DNA of 26,061 nucleotides from a virus: IMG/VR virus record IMGVR_UViG_3300046532_000070, positions 1-26,061 of that record. One strand, 5' to 3'. The translations under genes and the position numbers were made by a program. Positions 2,822 through 17,330 of this stretch are shown here, piece after piece. The stretch's first letter is position 1. Each line of letters starts with the position of its first letter. The notes beneath the pieces were generated by a model, which saw only the letters and a program-made list of their open reading frames with translations, was not told where the DNA came from and searched no databases.

Positions 2822-4351
2822 TTATAAAGTTTCTTCTAAAGCGTCTAGTTTATCTTCAGACATCTCTGGCTCTTCGTCAATTACATCAGAGTCACCAATG
2901 TCAAATAAGTTACCAAAGTGTGTACTTGCATTTACAGTTTTCTTACCTGTTGCACCACGTGTACCGATAATGGTCATAAACATCTTTGAATGATCTTCTA
3001 TGATTTGTTCGGCTTTTTCTCTACTGTCAGTTGCGAATATTGCGTCCACAACATCTCTAAAAAATACCCTGTCAAAACGCTCTTCGACAAGCATCTTTGG
3101 TACAACTCCATTGTCGTATTGTCTATTTGCTTCTTGTACTGCATTAATGTGACTCCATACATTATGACCCATTTGGATCGCATAGGAAAAACTATCCCAA
3201 CTAGTCTTGCCTTCTTTACCAATCTTATTTAAGTCACCTGGACCATATATGCAAACGTCTTTGGTTTTTAGTTCAGTAGTAAGCGGGCTGTCTTTAAAGC
3301 TCTTATGCTTACCAGCACTAACAAATGAAGTACTCCACGGTGTTGTATCTTGTGAAAGTCCTTTGTCATCTAAGCTAGGAACCATTCGATACACCCACTT
3401 TGATCTATCACCTGTTTCTAATTCACAATACACTTGTCCGTTTGCTGTTGCTAAAAATGGAGAAGCACAGTCAAATGTAATCATAAAGTTTTTGTTGTGA
3501 TACTTACGAACTGCTCTTTGTACATCAGTTAGTAGTGTAGCCCATTCTAGTTTACTTGTACCTAGAAAGTGCATTACATCATGTAAGCCTTCTTCAAGTA
3601 ATCCATCAAACCGTAATGCAATAAGTCTTTTCAAAACTAGATGAATATCACACATGTTCTGCCCACCCATTGACCAACCATTAAAATGATTGTCTGGATA
3701 CACAGCTGGGTCACAATAGTCTTTCATTTGATGATACCAATCTTCTGCATCAGCATGATTCTCTCCTTGTAACACATTAAGGAACTTACATGCTCCTGAA
3801 CGATGTTTCATAAAGTAATCATTATTAATACGTGTAGCATCAACTGCTTCTTGATATGAACTAACACCTGTAGCTTTAACTCCTGCTGGGCTACGTGCTA
3901 CCCAAGCTGGAATATCAAGTATCATACCATAGTCCATGTATGCGTCCATCCATGCAAGAACTTGTGTACGTTTCTTCATTGCCTTAGGACAGTTAGGATC
4001 TTTCCAGTCACCTTCCCACACACCCTTACCAATTTGGAAACCACCTGAGTCACCAAGCATCCAACTAGTAGTACGATCTCTTTTTCGTACCATATCTTCT
4101 TTAGGTGCGTCTTTATTAATATCAAGTTCAGCATGACCTGCGGAGTATAAACTCCAATGATATTGAAACTGACCATCTTTACGATTTAACCAGTTAAGAC
4201 TTTCTACACCGTTTTTAAAGTTTGACGGAACACGCTTGTAGTCTACGTATTCGCCTCGTTGTTGTTTACCTACAAATGTAGCATAGAAGCCACTAAGTGC
4301 TGGTAAAAACGTTGCAAAGTCTTTCTGTTCTGCGGTTAAATCGATGTTCAT
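2822..4351 (-). CDS. dpdA: TGT-like base-exchange enzyme, DpdA type
   Basis: A 509-residue protein with the hallmarks of the tRNA-guanine transglycosylase fold. DSGGFQ (101-106) is the substrate-binding signature with the general acid/base Asp, LNVLQGE (191-197) and WSMGGQ (226-231) match the NxLQG and GG loops, and FDCASP (293-298) carries the likely nucleophile D294. Near the C-terminal part, MGHNVWSHINAVQEANR resembles the HNL helix of TGT, but the canonical Cys3 zinc motif is not seen. Phage members of this family (DpdA) insert 7-deazaguanine bases into DNA, and phage rather than cellular context favours DNA over tRNA as substrate. The stop is 10 bases before the oxygenase start. Residues after about 430 are lineage-specific. 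Confidence 0.75.
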   Translation of the reverse strand: MNIDLTAEQKDFATFLPALSGFYATFVGKQQRGEYVDYKRVPSNFKNGVESLNWLNRKDGQFQYHWSLYSAGHAELDINKDAPKEDMVRKRDRTTSWMLGDSGGFQIGKGVWEGDWKDPNCPKAMKKRTQVLAWMDAYMDYGMILDIPAWVARSPAGVKATGVSSYQEAVDATRINNDYFMKHRSGACKFLNVLQGENHADAEDWYHQMKDYCDPAVYPDNHFNGWSMGGQNMCDIHLVLKRLIALRFDGLLEEGLHDVMHFLGTSKLEWATLLTDVQRAVRKYHNKNFMITFDCASPFLATANGQVYCELETGDRSKWVYRMVPSLDDKGLSQDTTPWSTSFVSAGKHKSFKDSPLTTELKTKDVCIYGPGDLNKIGKEGKTSWDSFSYAIQMGHNVWSHINAVQEANRQYDNGVVPKMLVEERFDRVFFRDVVDAIFATDSREKAEQIIEDHSKMFMTIIGTRGATGKKTVNASTHFGNLFDIGDSDVIDEEPEMSEDKLDALEETL

Positions 4352-10642: not shown

Positions 10643-10906
10643 TTAAGCAGTCCAAGGACGACCTGTTACAAGTCCGCCTGAGTTAGCATTATTGTCTAAT
10701 GTATTGTCTGTTTTATATCTTGTGGGTAGTTGTGTAGCATCAAGTGTATTTCTTGCTCTGTAAGAAACAGCATCTGTATCTGTTGATCCACTAATAGTAC
10801 CATTTGCGGCAACTGTTTTGCCTTCACGCTTTGCAAGTGCCTTAGCAAGTTTAGTATCTTGTCTTAGCTTTTTGTTTGCTAGTGTTGATATTCCGTTAGC
10901 GGCCAT
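10643..10906 (-). CDS. Putative virion-associated protein of marine T4-like phages
   Basis: An 87-residue basic protein (MAANGISTLANKKLRQ at the start; YRARNTLDATQLPTRY and GGLVTGRPWTA later). I recall this pattern from small conserved proteins in structural regions of marine myoviruses; the function is unknown. It lacks the [L/I]xE leader of its neighbours. The start overlaps the upstream stop (TAATG), so it is translated with the 10906-11775 gene. The 43 bases between its stop and the oxygenase start hold the TATAAATA promoter. Confidence 0.7.
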   Translation of the reverse strand: MAANGISTLANKKLRQDTKLAKALAKREGKTVAANGTISGSTDTDAVSYRARNTLDATQLPTRYKTDNTLDNNANSGGLVTGRPWTA

Positions 10907-11775
10907 TACTTTGGCTCAGGTTCAGCTTGTTGCTGTCCAGCTTCAGCTTGTTTCATAAGTGCTTTGAACTTACCAAACAGTTGAGGATTTGACATCATGC
11001 TCTGTATAGCAGTTGCATATGGTGCAATAGCTTTAATAATATTTGGAGGTAATGTTTCGCCTGAGGATATTTTATCTAATCCTTTTGCAACTTGAGCACC
11101 ACTTGCCTTACCACCAATAACACCTTTAAGTGCAGTTGCTTTCTGTGCAACCTGTTGTGCTAGTTTTGGATCAGGTGCTACGTCTGGTGCACCGGGTGCT
11201 TCAGGAACGCATTTGTTTACACGCTTACCTTTGTTCTTACCTGTACCTTTTTGTGTACCGGCTTTTTTATAACCATCCCAGCACTTGTCTGGTCCAGCTA
11301 CTTCTTTTACAAATTTGTTTTTAGCTTTTTTAAATTGTTTAAATCCTGTTTCAGGATCTAATTTAACTGCACCGTCGGACCAATCTGTTCCAGTCCACGT
11401 CCAAGTTGCAGTTCCATCGTTATAAGCACTACCTGGTTTTAGGTCGCTTACTTTCTTTGGTTCTGGTGCATTAGGTTTTGGTGCGGTAGCTTTATCTTTG
11501 GGCTTATCGTCTTTTTTAGAAGTGTCACCTTTGTTAATCCAATCATCAGTTTCTTTATCGTCAATACCGCCTTTTGGATCTATAGGCTTTTTATTACCAT
11601 GTGCGCCACCATACTTAGTTGACGCTTTAGTTGCAATAGCATCTAAGCCTCTAGCAACTCTAGTATTCTGTACATAGTTGTCAATCTTGCCAAGTGATGC
11701 TTTAGTGTTTAACCAACCACCGGGTGGAGCTTCGTTGATGTTATCGAACTCATTTGATAAATCAGTTAACTTCAT
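10906..11775 (-). CDS. Putative prohead/internal protein with CTS-like leader
   Basis: A 289-residue protein of low complexity in the middle (Lys-, Pro- and Asp-rich, 85-115) and helical at the end (Gln/Ala-rich). The start reads MKLTDLSNEFDNINE-APPGG: residues 13-15 (INE before Ala) fit the cleavage rule of the T4 prohead protease gp21. A Cys pair brackets a basic loop in the centre (CWDGYKKAGTQKGTGK, then NKCVPE), a motif that I recall as recurring in unrelated marine phage virion proteins. No enzyme domain was recognised. The protein is linked to both neighbours by TAATG overlaps. Confidence 0.65.
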   Translation of the reverse strand: MKLTDLSNEFDNINEAPPGGWLNTKASLGKIDNYVQNTRVARGLDAIATKASTKYGGAHGNKKPIDPKGGIDDKETDDWINKGDTSKKDDKPKDKATAPKPNAPEPKKVSDLKPGSAYNDGTATWTWTGTDWSDGAVKLDPETGFKQFKKAKNKFVKEVAGPDKCWDGYKKAGTQKGTGKNKGKRVNKCVPEAPGAPDVAPDPKLAQQVAQKATALKGVIGGKASGAQVAKGLDKISSGETLPPNIIKAIAPYATAIQSMMSNPQLFGKFKALMKQAEAGQQQAEPEPK

Positions 11776-11966
11776 TACTTGTCAAGCCAAATCTTTGAAA
11801 GTTTATCACCCATTGCTCTAATCTTTTCTGCTTCAGATGCGTTGCCATTCTGAGTAACATTTGTTTGTACTGCTGTTACTACAGGTGGTGGACCTTTTAC
11901 AACTGGTGCTGTATTTTGTGCATTAACTCTATTAAAGACTGCGTCTGTGTCGACTGGTTTAAACAT
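11775..11966 (-). CDS. Small late protein, function unknown
   Basis: A 63-residue protein (MFKPVDTDAVFNRVN at the start; SEAEKIRAMGDKLSKIWLDK helical at the end), with a Pro/Val/Thr-rich centre. A good ribosome site (AGGAG in TTAGGAGAATAATATG) precedes the ATG and overlaps the end of the upstream gene. The next gene starts on its stop (TAATG). No family was recognised, and it has no CTS-like leader. Confidence 0.6.
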   Translation of the reverse strand: MFKPVDTDAVFNRVNAQNTAPVVKGPPPVVTAVQTNVTQNGNASEAEKIRAMGDKLSKIWLDK

Positions 11967-11967
11967 A

Positions 11968-12528
11968 TTATTCTCCTAATGATGCTGATAATTTATTCAT
12001 CAATGATGTTTTATAATCTGTTGATTCATTTTTCATTGCGGCAAATTTATCTGCTTGTTTTTTTCTAGCGGCTTTATCTTCAGCATCCATCTTTGCGACA
12101 TTCTTATTTCTAAGAGCATCTAACTCTTTGCCTTTAAGTTGATCTTTTGTAGGTGCTAAATCTTCTGCAACCGCATTACAGTTACAATGTTTACAAGTTG
12201 GAGCACATTTACAATCTTCTGCTTTAACGTCTGCACCACAACACTTGTCTGAACAATGTGTGTCTTTTGATTCTGCAACTTCGTCAAACTTAACTTGATA
12301 GTCCATGTGATGATAAACACTACCTAAGTAGTCTGCTGATTTAGTAATTTTTGATTGTACCCAACCCTCTAAGCCTTCTTGCTCAGATACGTTTTTTAGC
12401 ATTTCGTGTAGTTTGATACTGTACTTTGCAATCTTGTATAGTTCAGCACGAGCCATTTGTACTTCATGGTCAGATTCAGCTCTGTAAGCCATATCTGCTA
12501 AACCTTCTTTTAATTGTTTCTTATTCAT
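11968..12528 (-). CDS. Late protein with CTS-like leader and a Cys-rich insertion
   Basis: Three possible starts lie close together (GTG 12537, ATG 12534, ATG 12528). The ATG at 12528 has AAGG eight bases upstream and is preferred, giving 186 residues. The protein then begins MNKKQLKE-GLAD, an LxE site before Gly as in T4 capsid-targeting peptides. A helical part (GWVQSKITKSADYLGSVYHHMDYQVKF) is of a type I recall from marine phage structural regions. It is followed by eight Cys in 27 residues (CSDKCCG, DCKC, CKHCNC), likely a metal-binding module. The C-terminus is Lys/Ala-rich. A late promoter lies 24 bases upstream of the chosen start. Confidence 0.7.
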   Translation of the reverse strand: MNKKQLKEGLADMAYRAESDHEVQMARAELYKIAKYSIKLHEMLKNVSEQEGLEGWVQSKITKSADYLGSVYHHMDYQVKFDEVAESKDTHCSDKCCGADVKAEDCKCAPTCKHCNCNAVAEDLAPTKDQLKGKELDALRNKNVAKMDAEDKAARKKQADKFAAMKNESTDYKTSLMNKLSASLGE

Positions 12529-12551
12529 ATTCATCACCTTTTGCTTACTAC

Positions 12552-12559
12552 TATTTATC
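12552..12559 (-). promoter_or_regulatory. Late promoter GATAAATA
   Basis: One-base variant of TATAAATA on the minus strand, overlapping the TAA stop of the 12555-12785 gene and followed by a 20-odd-base leader with AAAAGG before the ATG at 12528. Confidence 0.65.
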
Positions 12560-12785
12560 GTTTAGCTATCTTGGCCCCAAAGAAACTGTCTGATGCATCT
12601 AGTGCATTAACTACAGTTCCGTCTTTGTTCTTTTTAGCTTTCTTCTTAGGAACACCATTCTTGTCACGTGGAATTTGACCCTGTGCATGTACTGGATTAG
12701 CTACAGTTGCAATAGCACCTGCACTTGTACCGCCTGCTGTGGCAGTTTCACCAAGATCCTTTTGAAATAGTTCACGTATTAACAT
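12555..12785 (-). CDS. Small late protein with CTS-like leader
   Basis: A 76-residue protein that begins MLIRELFQKDLGE-TATAGGTSAG, with LGE before Thr as a possible prohead-protease site. The middle is Lys-rich (PKKKAKKNKD) and the end reads NALDASDSFFGAKIAKR. I recall the TATAGGTSAG and final FGxKxxKR patterns from small conserved proteins of marine T4-like phages, function unknown. The start resembles that of the nucleotidyltransferase (MFLRELFE). No close ribosome site is seen; GATAAATA lies 5 bases before the ATG. Confidence 0.7.
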   Translation of the reverse strand: MLIRELFQKDLGETATAGGTSAGAIATVANPVHAQGQIPRDKNGVPKKKAKKNKDGTVVNALDASDSFFGAKIAKR

Positions 12786-12790
12786 ACTGT

Positions 12791-12798
12791 TATTTATC
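12791..12798 (-). promoter_or_regulatory. Late promoter GATAAATA, leaderless spacing
   Basis: Minus-strand GATAAATA with 5 bases (ACAGT) before the ATG at 12785. The TAA in its centre is the stop codon of the upstream HAD gene (12794-12796). The expected transcript start falls on the ATG. Confidence 0.7.
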
Positions 12799-13552
12799 CT
12801 TCTTTAGGGGGCTTAGTAAAATAATCTTTCAATAGTCCAGCAGTACGTTCAAACTTGTGATCTTTATGTTTGAAACCTACGCCACCTTTTGATTCCCAAT
12901 TTCTAATATTAGACCCAAAGTCGTCAATTAGTATGTTAGGTGTACCGTCTGCTTGTTTTGCCCACTTATACTTGTCAGCGGAAACAATAACTTCTTTAGG
13001 CGGAAAAAACGCTAAGTTCTTTTTAACCCATTCACGCTTGTGTGGTTCTGCTCTAGGATCGTTTGCTAGTGGCGCACTTAGTATTGTATACTCGCCTTTA
13101 AGATCCTTAATAATGTTTAGTAAGTTTTGTGCATTTGCTGTTAACGGTAAGTTTAACCAAAAGTCATCTTTGTCTCTAATCTTTTGTAATGCATCTTCAA
13201 TATCTGTAATTTGTCGCCAATCTTTTCCTACAAGTTTCTTCCACGCTGGAAAGAAGTCTGCAAGTACACCGTCCATGTCTACATAGATTTCACTAACAGC
13301 TGATAGTTCTTTAGTTTGTAATTCTTTTATCTGCGACTCGGTCATCCCTAAATTATATAAAGTATTTGCTTTTGTATTCTTACTTGCTTTCTTATGCATA
13401 GTATACTTGGGTTTACCGGCTTTGTCAACCGAAAAACCAAGTTTCTTTGCTTCAATACTAGTTTGGTTAGGACCTACATCGGGAGTAGTGTTAACACCAG
13501 GTACAATAAGACCGACGCCTTCTGATAGCTTAGATATCTCATGCCACCTCAT
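12794..13552 (-). CDS. HAD 5'(3')-nucleotidase-like enzyme with CTS-like leader
   Basis: A 252-residue protein in two parts. Residues 1-85 have no known domain and begin MRWHEISKLSE-GVGL, with LSE before Gly fitting gp21-type cleavage. Residues 88-250 are a HAD phosphatase: YVDMDGVLADFF (D92, D94) is motif I, YTILSAP motif II (Ser), and LIDDFGSNIRNWESKGG motif IV. The C1-cap pattern resembles 5'(3')-deoxyribonucleotidases. Its place among late virion genes and its leader suggest that it is packaged in the capsid and delivered to the new host, perhaps to act on nucleotides. The ATG overlaps nothing upstream; its 5' end is overlapped by the stop of 13549-13779 (ATGA). Confidence 0.75.
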   Translation of the reverse strand: MRWHEISKLSEGVGLIVPGVNTTPDVGPNQTSIEAKKLGFSVDKAGKPKYTMHKKASKNTKANTLYNLGMTESQIKELQTKELSAVSEIYVDMDGVLADFFPAWKKLVGKDWRQITDIEDALQKIRDKDDFWLNLPLTANAQNLLNIIKDLKGEYTILSAPLANDPRAEPHKREWVKKNLAFFPPKEVIVSADKYKWAKQADGTPNILIDDFGSNIRNWESKGGVGFKHKDHKFERTAGLLKDYFTKPPKEG

Positions 13553-13779
13553 TTCTTTTTACGTCCTCTAAAGCCTTGTGGCATATTTTGGTTAGTCATG
13601 TAAGGTCTATTAAACCAAAGTTTAAACCAATCTTGATCACCAGGTTTTAAACCTAATTTTTTTTCTTTTTGTTTTAGAGCTGTTGCAGTGATACTAGGGT
13701 TTTCGTCAATCTTATATTCGGAGTAACCTTTATATTCGTTTACGCCTGCAAGTTGAATTATACGTTCTAGTTCATCCAT
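13549..13779 (-). CDS. Small basic late protein, function unknown
   Basis: A 76-residue protein starting MDELERIIQLAGVNE and ending in a very basic tail (GFRGRKKK). VNE at 13-15 and IDE at 25-27 could be protease sites but are weaker matches than in the neighbours. KPGDQDWFKLWFNRPYM suggests a small folded core. It is coupled to both neighbours: TAATG with the nucleotidyltransferase upstream and ATGA with the HAD gene downstream. Confidence 0.65.
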   Translation of the reverse strand: MDELERIIQLAGVNEYKGYSEYKIDENPSITATALKQKEKKLGLKPGDQDWFKLWFNRPYMTNQNMPQGFRGRKKK

Positions 13780-15395
13780 TACTTTGCTTTGGCCTTACCA
13801 GCTTTCATATTAGCCATCCAATGTGCCATACGTTGCTTTTCGCCACTGCTACCTTTTGCAGTTTTTCTTAAACTACTTACACTTGCTTTAGTATCAACTC
13901 CACTACGCTTGGCTAATCCTTTACGTCCGGGCTTCTTGCCGTCTGCAAAGTTTTCATCGTAGTGTGCATCTTTGTTTCCACCTGCGTCTTGTGTCTTATA
14001 GCCCATCTTCTTTAGAGCTACTTTAATAATTTCATCTTCTTCAGGACTAAACGGAACAATCATTACATCTGGCTCAGATGGATTAACATCGTCTGGGTCC
14101 ATAGTATCTGTGTTTGCAAGGTGTGTACCTAGCTTAATAAAATCATACGCTGTGTCTGACTTTGCTAACGTACTACTTTTAGGATTAGGAATTAGATCAC
14201 CTTCATTTTTCATAGAGGCAACATTACTAATCATTTTATAGATATCGCCGCCTGCTTTTTTAAATGCTTGTGAAACTTCTTTCTCTGTAAACTTTAAATA
14301 ATCAACCATGTACATTGCAAGGCCAGCTTCACCATCGCCTTTGTACATATCAATTAAGTCTTGTTCTAAATTACTACTACTTTCGTTAGCATGTATTGCG
14401 GCTTGTTGTTTCTTACGCATAGGATGTCCTTTACCGTGGATACCTTTCTTACGTCCGTCACCTTCTTTCATAGCAGAAATAAGCATGTCTTCTAATTTGT
14501 TTAACTCGTCTCTATCAACTTCAAATTGTGTTAATACTTTTTCTAATTCTTTTTCGTCTTTTGTTTTAATTAACTCGTTATACAGTTTCGTTCCACCGTA
14601 TAGTGCTACTGCAATACCAACAGCTGGTAATCCGTATCTGCCTAGTGCTTGTGTAACAGGGTGATCTAAGAATCTGTTAGCCCATTTTACTGCATCTCTT
14701 ACCCAAGGATAAACTTTCCAAGTAGCAGTTAAGAACCCTATGGCCCATTTATTGTTCCAAAAGAACTTACCAATTTTACCAACAGCCATTACGCCTCTAA
14801 GAGCAGGTACTGCCCATTCGTCTAAACTTTCATCTTCTGTAGCAATGCCCATACCTTTTCTAACTTGGTCGTACATTGAAAGAGCAAACATTGGACTAGC
14901 AACACCTTTCTTGAAACTATTGTAGTCACCTTCTTGTGCCGCGGCTCTCATTTTACTTGCACTCATGCCTTCAGCACCTTCTGCATCGGGATCACGTTCG
15001 CCTGCACTTACAATATTAATACTGTTAAACTTATAATCTTTGCCGTTGTAGTCATTTAATAGTTTAGTAAATGAATCAACTCTATCACTACCTGCTACAT
15101 ACACAATGTCTGTGTAACCTTTAGCTTCTAAATTCTGCATTGCTTGGATAATAGTTTTTACTTTAGGATCACCAATTTCAACTCCAGGGAAACTCTTCGA
15201 TGCGAAGTACATCTTCTCTGGAAAAGGTAGTGGATCTGTTTTAGGTTTTTGTGTTTGGCTTAAAAATAGAAAAGGATCACCTTGTTGTGACTTTACTACG
15301 TCAGCTAATTTAGCGTGTCCAATAGTGGGAGGGTTCATTCTACCAAATGCAAACACCGCAGTTTTGGGTGCTTCAAATAACTCTCTTAGAAACAT
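13779..15395 (-). CDS. Nucleotidyltransferase fused to a putative virion domain, CTS-like leader
   Basis: A 538-residue protein. It starts MFLRELFE-APKT (LFE before Ala, a gp21-type site). Residues about 12-190 are a cytidylyltransferase/NMN-adenylyltransferase fold: FGRMNPPTIGH (17-27) is the HxGH-type site with Thr in the first place, YVAGSDRVDSF is the middle motif, and MSASKMR the ISSTxxR motif. Residues about 205-290 contain two hydrophobic stretches (WAIGFLTATWKVYPWV and YGLPAVGIAVALYGG). The rest is charged and ends Lys-rich (WMANMKAGKAKAK). Phage proteins of this head type are annotated as cytidyltransferases in cyanophages. The enzyme could act in NAD or CDP chemistry; the tail suggests a packaged or ejected protein. 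Confidence 0.8.
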   Translation of the reverse strand: MFLRELFEAPKTAVFAFGRMNPPTIGHAKLADVVKSQQGDPFLFLSQTQKPKTDPLPFPEKMYFASKSFPGVEIGDPKVKTIIQAMQNLEAKGYTDIVYVAGSDRVDSFTKLLNDYNGKDYKFNSINIVSAGERDPDAEGAEGMSASKMRAAAQEGDYNSFKKGVASPMFALSMYDQVRKGMGIATEDESLDEWAVPALRGVMAVGKIGKFFWNNKWAIGFLTATWKVYPWVRDAVKWANRFLDHPVTQALGRYGLPAVGIAVALYGGTKLYNELIKTKDEKELEKVLTQFEVDRDELNKLEDMLISAMKEGDGRKKGIHGKGHPMRKKQQAAIHANESSSNLEQDLIDMYKGDGEAGLAMYMVDYLKFTEKEVSQAFKKAGGDIYKMISNVASMKNEGDLIPNPKSSTLAKSDTAYDFIKLGTHLANTDTMDPDDVNPSEPDVMIVPFSPEEDEIIKVALKKMGYKTQDAGGNKDAHYDENFADGKKPGRKGLAKRSGVDTKASVSSLRKTAKGSSGEKQRMAHWMANMKAGKAKAK

Positions 15396-15733
15396 TAATA
15401 CTCTCCGTCTCTAAGTGCGGTCATTTCCTCGCTAAAGATTATTTCAGCTAATGATTTAGCATCTTCTTTCGTTAATAGTTCTGATGGGCGTTTGTTAATA
15501 CCAAACTGTTTACAGTAATGTTCAGCACCTGCTGTAATCATATCTGTTAAGTCAGTTGGCATAGGACTTTTGCCACCTTGTAATTTAGATTGCATATTAC
15601 ACATTGTTGGATAATACTTTTTACGATAGAACATTGGATCGTTCTTCATAAACACTTGCATGTCACTAACGACATCAAATCCTAAATCATTTTCTTTTTC
15701 TACTTCAAAATCCGTAAACTCGTTAATTCTCAT
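15395..15733 (-). CDS. Conserved-looking late protein, probable virion role
   Basis: From the ATG at 15733 (MRINEFTDFEVE) the protein is 112 residues. The frame is open to 15790, but that start lies deep in the upstream gene, while 15733 follows its TAA by one base and has GGAAGTGG upstream. DVVSDMQVFMKNDPMFYRKKYYP is a distinctive segment of a type I recall from marine T4-like phages, with no assigned function. It is acidic and helical at the end. Its stop overlaps the nucleotidyltransferase start (TAATG). Confidence 0.7.
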   Translation of the reverse strand: MRINEFTDFEVEKENDLGFDVVSDMQVFMKNDPMFYRKKYYPTMCNMQSKLQGGKSPMPTDLTDMITAGAEHYCKQFGINKRPSELLTKEDAKSLAEIIFSEEMTALRDGEY

Positions 15734-15734
15734 A

Positions 15735-16328
15735 TTACCACTTCCTACATGACCAGTAACGTGCCTTTGTACGTGGTCCTGGATTGTCACAGTTATGTCT
15801 TGCTCTAAAGCTCTTACGTCTTTTTGGATTATTCTTTTTGATACTCATAGCTTTACCTTTAACACTACTTCCGCCGTGTCCAAAGTTAACTTTTTTAGTA
15901 TTACCTGTCTTAGGATCTTTTACATATACTTTAAATTTCTTGACATCACCTTGCATAGGCTTGCCTAGTTTAACTTTACGTCCTTGATACTCTGCTTCGT
16001 CTATTGGATCATCATCTTCGTTCCAATGCATAACACCATACTGTTCAAAGAACTCGTCATCATCGTCATATGTTTCTTCTTCAAGCTCTTCGCCAACACC
16101 TGCACTAATTTCAATATCAAAGTCATCGTAACCTTGTTCGAACATATAGTTTGCTAGTTTGTTAGCATACTCAGTTGATTCGTCTTCTGAAAGTTGTCTT
16201 GGTAAAGCAATTTCCCATGCTGTTCCACCTTGCTCAGTTTCGTAAAGGTTTTGGTCAGGAAAAATACTTTCGTCTAACAACTTAGTTGTTTCCTGTTTTT
16301 CCATTACTATTCTTACAAAATGTTCCAT
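15735..16328 (-). CDS. DUF5872-like protein with acidic linker
   Basis: A 197-residue protein with a strong ribosome site (AGGAG). The first 75 residues look folded (MEHFVRIVMEKQE onward, GYDDFDIEISAG), the centre is very acidic (EEETYDDDDEFFEQ), and the last 85 form a basic domain: GRKVKLGKPMQGDVKKFKVYV, SIKKNNPKRRKSFRARHNC and ARYWSCRKW. I recall this C-terminal domain (DUF5872) as frequent in marine phages; its Cys/His residues and basic charge would suit zinc or nucleic-acid binding. LDE at 18-20 could be a protease site. The acidic/basic layout is like scaffold or core proteins. Confidence 0.75.
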   Translation of the reverse strand: MEHFVRIVMEKQETTKLLDESIFPDQNLYETEQGGTAWEIALPRQLSEDESTEYANKLANYMFEQGYDDFDIEISAGVGEELEEETYDDDDEFFEQYGVMHWNEDDDPIDEAEYQGRKVKLGKPMQGDVKKFKVYVKDPKTGNTKKVNFGHGGSSVKGKAMSIKKNNPKRRKSFRARHNCDNPGPRTKARYWSCRKW

Positions 16329-16675: not shown

Positions 16676-16679
16676 ATAG

Positions 16680-17330
16680 TTATTTATCTAGTTCTGTACT
16701 CGATACGATTTTATCGATACGCATGAAGTCTCGCTTTAAAAACAATCTTATTAGTGTTATAGTAGCATGATCTTTAACGTACATGTACTTTCCTTTTAGA
16801 TTATACCCACCTTTAATGTCACTTAATACAACGCCACCTATCTTAATTTTGTCTTTATGTTTTAAACAAAATCCAGCTAAGTTAGGATCTGCTGATCCGT
16901 TAAGTGTAACCTTATAAGCAAACTTAATAGTGTCGTTAATAATAACACCCTTAGGAAGATCAGCATTATCTCTGGGCATGTGTATAGAACACACAGCATT
17001 TAATTTACTGTTTAGTTGCTTAACCCATTCAAAGTTATTAGTGTATATACCTAAGTGCCACGTTTCGCAACGTAGCTTATAGTCTTCTTCTTGATTAGTA
17101 AATTCATGTAATAGAGTCTGTAAGTCTTTTAGTTCTTCTTGACTTACTCGTACATCTCTCATTCCTATACGAAGGAACCCATTACCAGTTGCTTGGTCTA
17201 ATGCACTATCGATTGACTTTCGTGCAAAGGACATGTTCTTATTTCTAAAAACATGCCCTAGTGCGTTTGACAAGTCTACTTTATATTTGTATTTGTCAAA
17301 GAATAGTTTAGTTGAGTCAATCTTGATCAA
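16680..17330 (-). CDS. Unknown protein co-translated with the ClpA-like gene
   Basis: A 216-residue basic protein. The only start that gives the full open frame is a TTG at 17330, which lies inside the last codons of the clpA-like gene (14-base overlap), so translational coupling is likely; the next ATG (17234) would drop 32 residues. The sequence has a helical N-terminal third and a beta-rich end (IKFAYKVTLNG, GGYNLKGKYMYVKDHATITLIRLF). No domain was recognised. Its position as the last gene of the dnaJ-def-clpA transcript suggests a substrate, adaptor or partner of that machinery, which is inference. Confidence 0.65.
   Translation of the reverse strand: MIKIDSTKLFFDKYKYKVDLSNALGHVFRNKNMSFARKSIDSALDQATGNGFLRIGMRDVRVSQEELKDLQTLLHEFTNQEEDYKLRCETWHLGIYTNNFEWVKQLNSKLNAVCSIHMPRDNADLPKGVIINDTIKFAYKVTLNGSADPNLAGFCLKHKDKIKIGGVVLSDIKGGYNLKGKYMYVKDHATITLIRLFLKRDFMRIDKIVSSTELDK
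16681..16688 (-). promoter_or_regulatory. Late promoter GATAAATA, leaderless spacing
   Basis: Minus-strand GATAAATA overlapping the stop of the 16680-17330 gene, with 5 bases (ACTAT) before the ATG at 16675. It marks the switch from the early-promoted dnaJ operon to the late virion genes. Confidence 0.75.

Follow-up and report, generated by a model that had tools for sequence, protein, structure and literature searches.

Why do several unrelated proteins encoded side by side in a virus genome begin with the same kind of short peptide? The question is raised by a gene block at positions 10643–15395 of IMG/VR virus record IMGVR_UViG_3300046532_000070, a 26-kb piece of a virus contig with its genes on the minus strand; all 26,061 nucleotides were analysed and are called the window here. 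A first-pass annotation had noted that five block proteins start with a peptide ending in [L/I]-x-E before a small residue, as in T4 internal proteins, and had suggested a packaged, injected set. We conclude that the block very probably supplies a large marine T4-like phage with internal head proteins, targeted to the capsid and processed by the prohead protease gp21. Translation of the window open reading frames (ORFs) bore out all five leaders as written, and the block features are as follows, with arrows marking predicted cuts.

13779–15395, minus strand: nucleotidyltransferase with a fold like phosphopantetheine adenylyltransferase (PPAT) or nicotinamide mononucleotide (NMN) adenylyltransferase (NMNAT), leader MFLRELFE↓A; PHROG 3041 (E = 4e-54), alignment of 14 homologues and fold match
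15372–15395, minus strand: leader of the nucleotidyltransferase, eight codons, ending LFE; junction retained in 20 of 21 distinct homologue leaders
13549–13779, minus strand: 76-aa basic protein, leader MDELERIIQLAGVNE↓Y; leaders of relatives
12794–13552, minus strand: HAD-family 5'-deoxyribonucleotidase (NT5C), leader MRWHEISKLSE↓G; PF06941 (E = 3e-7) and leaders of relatives
13520–13552, minus strand: 11-codon leader of the HAD protein; all 18 homologue leaders, 8–28 residues long, have Glu at the junction
12555–12785, minus strand: 76-aa basic protein, leader MLIRELFQKDLGE↓TATAGGTSAGAIAT, copy of the capsid post-cleavage arm; identity to gp23 and a homologue in a related contig
12747–12785, minus strand: leader of the 12555–12785 protein, 13 codons; comparison of homologue leaders
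11968–12528, minus strand: Cys-rich protein, leader MNKKQLKE↓G; homologue leaders
10906–11775, minus strand: 289-aa basic protein, leader MKLTDLSNEFDNINE↓APPGGWLNTK; leaders of relatives

The Cys-rich leader is read from an ATG at 12528, the longest ORF beginning three codons earlier at a GTG. The leader at 13549–13779 is a sixth, overlooked in the first pass; its P3 residue (the third before the cut, P1 being the last) is Val here and Ile in relatives (MDIKTLQRLAGINE↓F). IMG/VR contigs sharing the block include two large ones, G004 (267,783 bases) and the more distant G017 (186,312 bases); gene starts on contigs came from a simple custom caller, and a few are possibly wrong.

The earlier estimate that such a site occurs near the N terminus of one protein in eight is about right: shuffling gave 3.9 of 37 window proteins with Glu at residues 7–16, and the two big relatives have a rate of 15% (residues 7–17). 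Five of ten block genes carry the motif versus 5 of 28 in the rest of the window (Fisher p = 0.06), so the enrichment described as notable is present but modest, and weak as sole evidence; the binomial p = 0.009 for the block count applies to a block chosen post hoc. No other ten-gene stretch of the G017 genome is as dense in the motif as the block (p = 0.01). By computed charge the mature block proteins are mostly basic. Genome-wide counting of [LI]xE near N termini was set aside as insensitive (z = 1.4 for T4 and 0.9 for G004, though z = 5 for G017 and C48C1), and the same count fails to single out T4's own internal proteins.

Because motif counts alone prove little, we tested the prediction that distinguishes a propeptide from a coincidence, namely that the leader may change while the junction must stay. 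The first pass had made retention of the leader in homologues its test; leader sequence and length vary, but the cleavage junction is conserved across 75 distinct homologue leaders of 8–28 residues. Leu or Ile occupies P3 in 84% (background 14%), compared with 8% at P2 and 5% at P4, whereas the Glu at P1 in 72 of 75 is partly a matter of construction, because the list was assembled by hand and junctions were set by eye at Glu, which does not apply to the P3 bias. The full [LI]xE stands at the junction in 61 of 75 leaders, against a shuffled-residue mean of 3.7 (maximum 11) and a mean of 19.5 (maximum 33) when Glu was held fixed in the permutation; 19 mutually dissimilar leaders gave 13 matches against 0.66 (maximum 5). 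A variable leader with a fixed junction is what a disposable propeptide predicts, and this supports the interpretation first offered. An alternative measure, residue conservation over 1225 pairwise best-hit orthologues, was not used as evidence, as related pairs swamp the signal and K and N rise too.

Individual families illustrate the pattern. Relatives of the HAD protein begin MRWHEISE↓GVG, MKLRQLYE↓GVG, MKLRQLFE↓NGG, MKWHKITE↓AVG, MRFSEIRE↓DG or MKISEITE↓GVG, others have leaders of 27–28 residues ending MAE, IQE, VQE or IEE, and the HTVC008M homologue has MKYSAFKAETLNLHLVQE↓Q. The APPGGWLNTK start of the mature 289-aa protein follows MKVEDLVE or MKITDLME in relatives, the TATAG after MLIRELFQKDLGE follows MKIREIFE in the G017 homologue, and Cys-rich homologues have MREKDLKE↓D, MKNNEITE↓G, MNKKEVME↓G and MRAKHFKKKINE↓D. 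Among 14 nucleotidyltransferase homologues, M1 and E8 are invariant along with the active-site residues G26 and H27.

Published proteomics places homologues of the nucleotidyltransferase in particles. Mass spectrometry is reported to have found the enzyme in purified virions of S-SM1 (PMC3037559), S-SZBM1 (PMC9146016), S-CREM2 (PMC10665884) and S-SCSM1 (PMC9602691), and products of neighbouring genes are likewise reported from the last three. The N termini of these four enzymes, MKKFSAFLNE↓A, MRFRQFIIE↓A, MKNFSSFLTE↓A and MKSFLQFLKE↓A, respectively, are T4-like and close to the leader MKTYQEFIAE↓A of a T4 internal protein (IP). The S-PM2 enzyme, joined to part of its neighbour, lacks a leader and is recorded as undetected in the virion of that phage (PMC3037559); because the studies differ in sensitivity, this comparison is suggestive only. 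The available portions of the cyanophage papers report or propose virion carriage of this homologous enzyme from a homologous locus, and in them no leader, targeting sequence or protease site is described for it. A literature search on capsid targeting returned no paper on such targeting in cyanophages, and the text on CBB virion proteomics mentions no cytidylyltransferase. The annotated start of the C48C1 cytidyltransferase (L111:6055) removes the leader, the upstream frame giving (V)IKNFSQYLLEE↓EREVYFTFGRMNPP; a leader on this enzyme can thus be hidden by public annotation.

The protease itself is encoded by relatives with the same block, a point that the first pass had proposed to check: a Pfam search found gp21 (PF03420) in both G004 and G017, beside the major capsid protein gp23 (PF07068, E = 5e-98), and gp21 also occurs in eight reference phages. 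One His and one Ser are invariant in the gp21 alignment, fitting a serine protease. Judging by these contigs, the phage of the window presumably has gp21. The gp23 sites, ...ENTRKWLNE↓TATAGSTSAGNVAT in G004 and ...ENTRKYLAE↓SATAGATSAGNVAT in G017, align with FLTE↓AEIGG of T4 gp23, the known T4 cut at Glu65. The 12555–12785 protein (QKDLGE↓TATAGGTSAGAIAT) is identical to gp23 at 14 of 21 residues across the predicted gp21 junction (BLAST E = 0.001 among 509 proteins), and one leader-bearing protein therefore repeats the processing region of the capsid protein.

Junction conservation, gp21 in relatives and enzyme homologues in four cyanophage virions thus uphold the idea of a packaged set, and we regard packaging as well supported. 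We infer cleavage, internal cuts and enzyme roles as follows. Block proteins would be made late, and a short capsid targeting sequence at the N terminus of each would dock it to the prohead scaffold core; cutting after [L/I/V/M]-x-E by a gp21-type protease would then leave the mature protein, basic in most cases, around the DNA within the head. The cargo would comprise the PPAT/NMNAT-like nucleotidyltransferase, the 5'-deoxyribonucleotidase, the Cys-rich protein and the capsid-arm copy, and further gp21-type sites before small basic C-terminal modules would set these free as individual peptides. As T4 Alt and the IP proteins suggest by analogy, entry into the next host with the genome would be probable, and we consider injection with the DNA plausible.

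Several observations weigh against this interpretation, besides the placement of junctions by eye. Block genes at 11775–11966 and 10643–10906 have no leader. The HTVC008M nucleotidyltransferase starts MKTLKELLRKKVGRK (MKTLKELLRKK), with no Glu, as one clear exception, and some 13549–13779 homologues end GIGQ or GIKD at the junction. A gp21 family search of the window fragment found none, head genes also being missing from it. The virion evidence covers homologues of one block member in cyanophages; it shows neither leader removal nor location inside the head, and the S-SCSM1 authors allow carry-over as the source of detection (PMC9602691).

It is highly improbable that the block is a coincidence arising because hydrophobic-x-Glu triplets are common near N termini. 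The motif count alone is weak, both in the window (Fisher test) and genome-wide in G004, but chance is already contradicted by the conserved junctions, which are kept in leaders of differing length and show the P3 bias; it also sits badly with the identity to the capsid site, the virion detection and the density of the G017 cluster. An unlikely alternative accepts binding to the scaffold core and targeting to the head and holds that most leaders stay uncut, the Glu being part of a binding helix. In T4, a leader that has Asp at position 10 still targets and remains unprocessed (PMC9026906), and two leader-like starts without a site, described below, fit the same idea; yet Glu stays beside the mature domain while leader length varies, the capsid protein's own site is copied and the same site precedes internal modules.

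We find it very hard to credit that the leaders are protein–protein or membrane-association helices for another compartment, such as the tail or a replication complex, with an accidental likeness to T4. Short amphipathic helices are generic, and the nucleotidyltransferase leader is modelled as a short helix (residues 3–7) outside the fold at low confidence (block pLDDT 59); against this, one leader type occurs on unrelated late-promoter proteins in phages with gp21, and homologues are detected in virions.

The proposed processing of internal head proteins by gp21 bears as well on two basic modules within proteins of the block region, listed here with the protein that carries the second.

13779–13952, minus strand: C-terminal basic module of the nucleotidyltransferase, NFADGKKPGRKG..., 57 aa, after a predicted internal site YDE↓N; Glu before its copies in dissimilar contexts
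15735–16328, minus strand: 197-aa protein with a candidate leader ending LLDE↓S (MEHFVRIVMEKQETTKLLDE↓S) and a C-terminal module after IDE↓AEYQGRKV; standalone copies elsewhere start MAKYQGR
15735–15995, minus strand: YQGRK/YWSC module, 86 aa, computed net charge about +22; PHROG 7595

Relatives carry the first, or NFADG, module (charge +13) on unrelated proteins; searches of the reference phage collection and of Pfam gave no match to it. Glu precedes all 59 copies that have a preceding residue, and across 25 dissimilar upstream contexts P3 is L, I, V or M in 72%, compared with 20% at P2 and 8% at P4; some phages carry it directly after a leader (MRASEFITE↓NFADG, MRIAEIMSE↓NFADG). In almost every lineage that has gp21, Flavobacterium phage Immuto among them (LDE↓GEYRGKDV), the second module, AEYQGRKV...YWSCRKW, stands after [L/I/V/M]-x-E, although its upstream contexts are not independent because most are homologous to each other. 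Kolga, CRP-901 and HTVC026P, which have no gp21, encode it as a separate gene starting MAKYQGR, MATYKGK or MAKYKGR, near the residue that cleavage would expose. Roseobacter phage CRP-6 (L184:635-1324), also without gp21, has it fused to a Peptidase_S78_2 (XkdF-type) protease, and this fusion is, on domain content, a second link of the module to head maturation.

That two mobile basic modules sit after the same type of site suggests internal gp21 cuts, and the simplest reading is that gp21 would free both. The evidence leaves us evenly balanced on a broader proposal, a modular 'head cargo' system in which NFADG, AEYQGRKV...YWSC and the capsid-arm copy are shuffled with their adjoining gp21 site, the protease acting as a polyprotein processor that would release enzymes and DNA- or capsid-binding peptides in the head. 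A third recurrent motif, AGPDKCWDGYKKAGTQKGTGKNKGKRVNKCVPE, lies within 10906–11775 (minus strand) and at several loci on different proteins of relatives, preceded by EV and with no cut site.

The two putative cargo enzymes were characterized by family and fold. The nucleotidyltransferase domain is modelled (pLDDT 86) as a Rossmann-like fold with a T/H-x-G-H motif and contains GRMNPPTIGH and SASKMR. Because a sequence-profile search of the PDB gave weak matches alone, fold comparison was needed, and Foldseek matched PPAT 5ts2 (E = 1.5e-5) and NadM 2qjo (E = 3.4e-5); scores stayed below curated family cut-offs, and profiles cannot choose between phosphopantetheine and NMN adenylyltransferase. 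For the HAD protein, PF06941 scored 30.9 bits against a cut-off of 24.8, pointing to an NT5C-type 5'-deoxyribonucleotidase.

The sorting system is known from T4; the conserved marine locus, its enzymes, the shuffled modules and the capsid-arm copy are new variations on it. Like the block proteins, T4 IPI–IPIII combine a 10-residue leader ending in [L/I]-x-E with a small basic mature protein, late expression and gp21 in the phage group, whereas here marine and jumbo T4-like phages share a conserved locus, its mature proteins are unrelated to the T4 IPs, the set includes two enzymes and leaders span 8–28 residues. T4 Alt is likewise a head-packaged, gp21-processed enzyme (PMC9026906), although as an ADP-ribosyltransferase it differs from both block enzymes. 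The large phages phiKZ and SPN3US also cut internal head proteins, their ejection proteins, after a short Glu-ending motif, with different, diverged proteases and unrelated cargo. NMNAT-like enzymes, classed in annotations as auxiliary metabolic genes, have repeatedly been found in cyanophage virions; their route into the particle would be explained by a capsid targeting sequence, which would also mark their gene neighbours as packaged. Together, leader and junction rule would make the packaged set of marine T4-like phages, a group for which almost none is known, predictable from sequence. If true, the role of gp21 widens from capsid maturation to the processing of shuffled cargo modules, and leader swaps would offer a simple handle on the function of packaged enzymes in the first minutes of infection.

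Elsewhere the window encodes a ClpA-like ATPase, DnaJ, peptide deformylase, an endolysin, several virion-type proteins and a T4-type DNA polymerase whose best identity, 51%, is to that of Sinorhizobium jumbo phage Phosso. A 509-aa protein (2822–4351, minus strand) had no PHROG match in the search made, in an otherwise annotated stretch. The two leader-like starts without a cut site are the following window gene and the G004 product at 101825–102070, a core-gene product between portal and protease that starts MILRELFYFDKE (MILRELFYF).

15395–15733, minus strand: 113-aa protein, MRINEFTDFE..., leader-like start without an [LI]xE site; relatives MLLREMFSPIG... and MLLNELFSSIG...

By analogy with T4, where Asp at the cut position leaves a leader able to target but unprocessed, both products may be targeted yet uncut.

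The description of the block as late agrees with two promoter-like elements.

12791–12797, minus strand: late-promoter-like ATAAATA, 5 nt before the ATG of 12555–12785; same element and distance in the G004 and G017 orthologues
12552–12558, minus strand: late-promoter-like ATAAATA before the Cys-rich gene (11968–12528); motif search

ATAAATA is the core of the T4 late promoter. In G004, 33 of 292 genes have it in their 45 upstream bases, where 1.1 would be expected; the counts are 20 of 217 (0.8 expected) for G017 and 5 of 41 (0.3 expected) for the window, two of the five being these block genes. Its spacing to the start falls into two classes (12786–12797 and 16676–16687, minus strand; G004; G017). 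One lies mostly at least 14 bases upstream, usually with a GGAG/AGGA-like site; the other lies exactly 5 bases upstream with no ribosome-binding site (six genes in G004 and five in G017, none at 0–4 or 6–7) and, from its spacing, looks like a class of leaderless late mRNAs.

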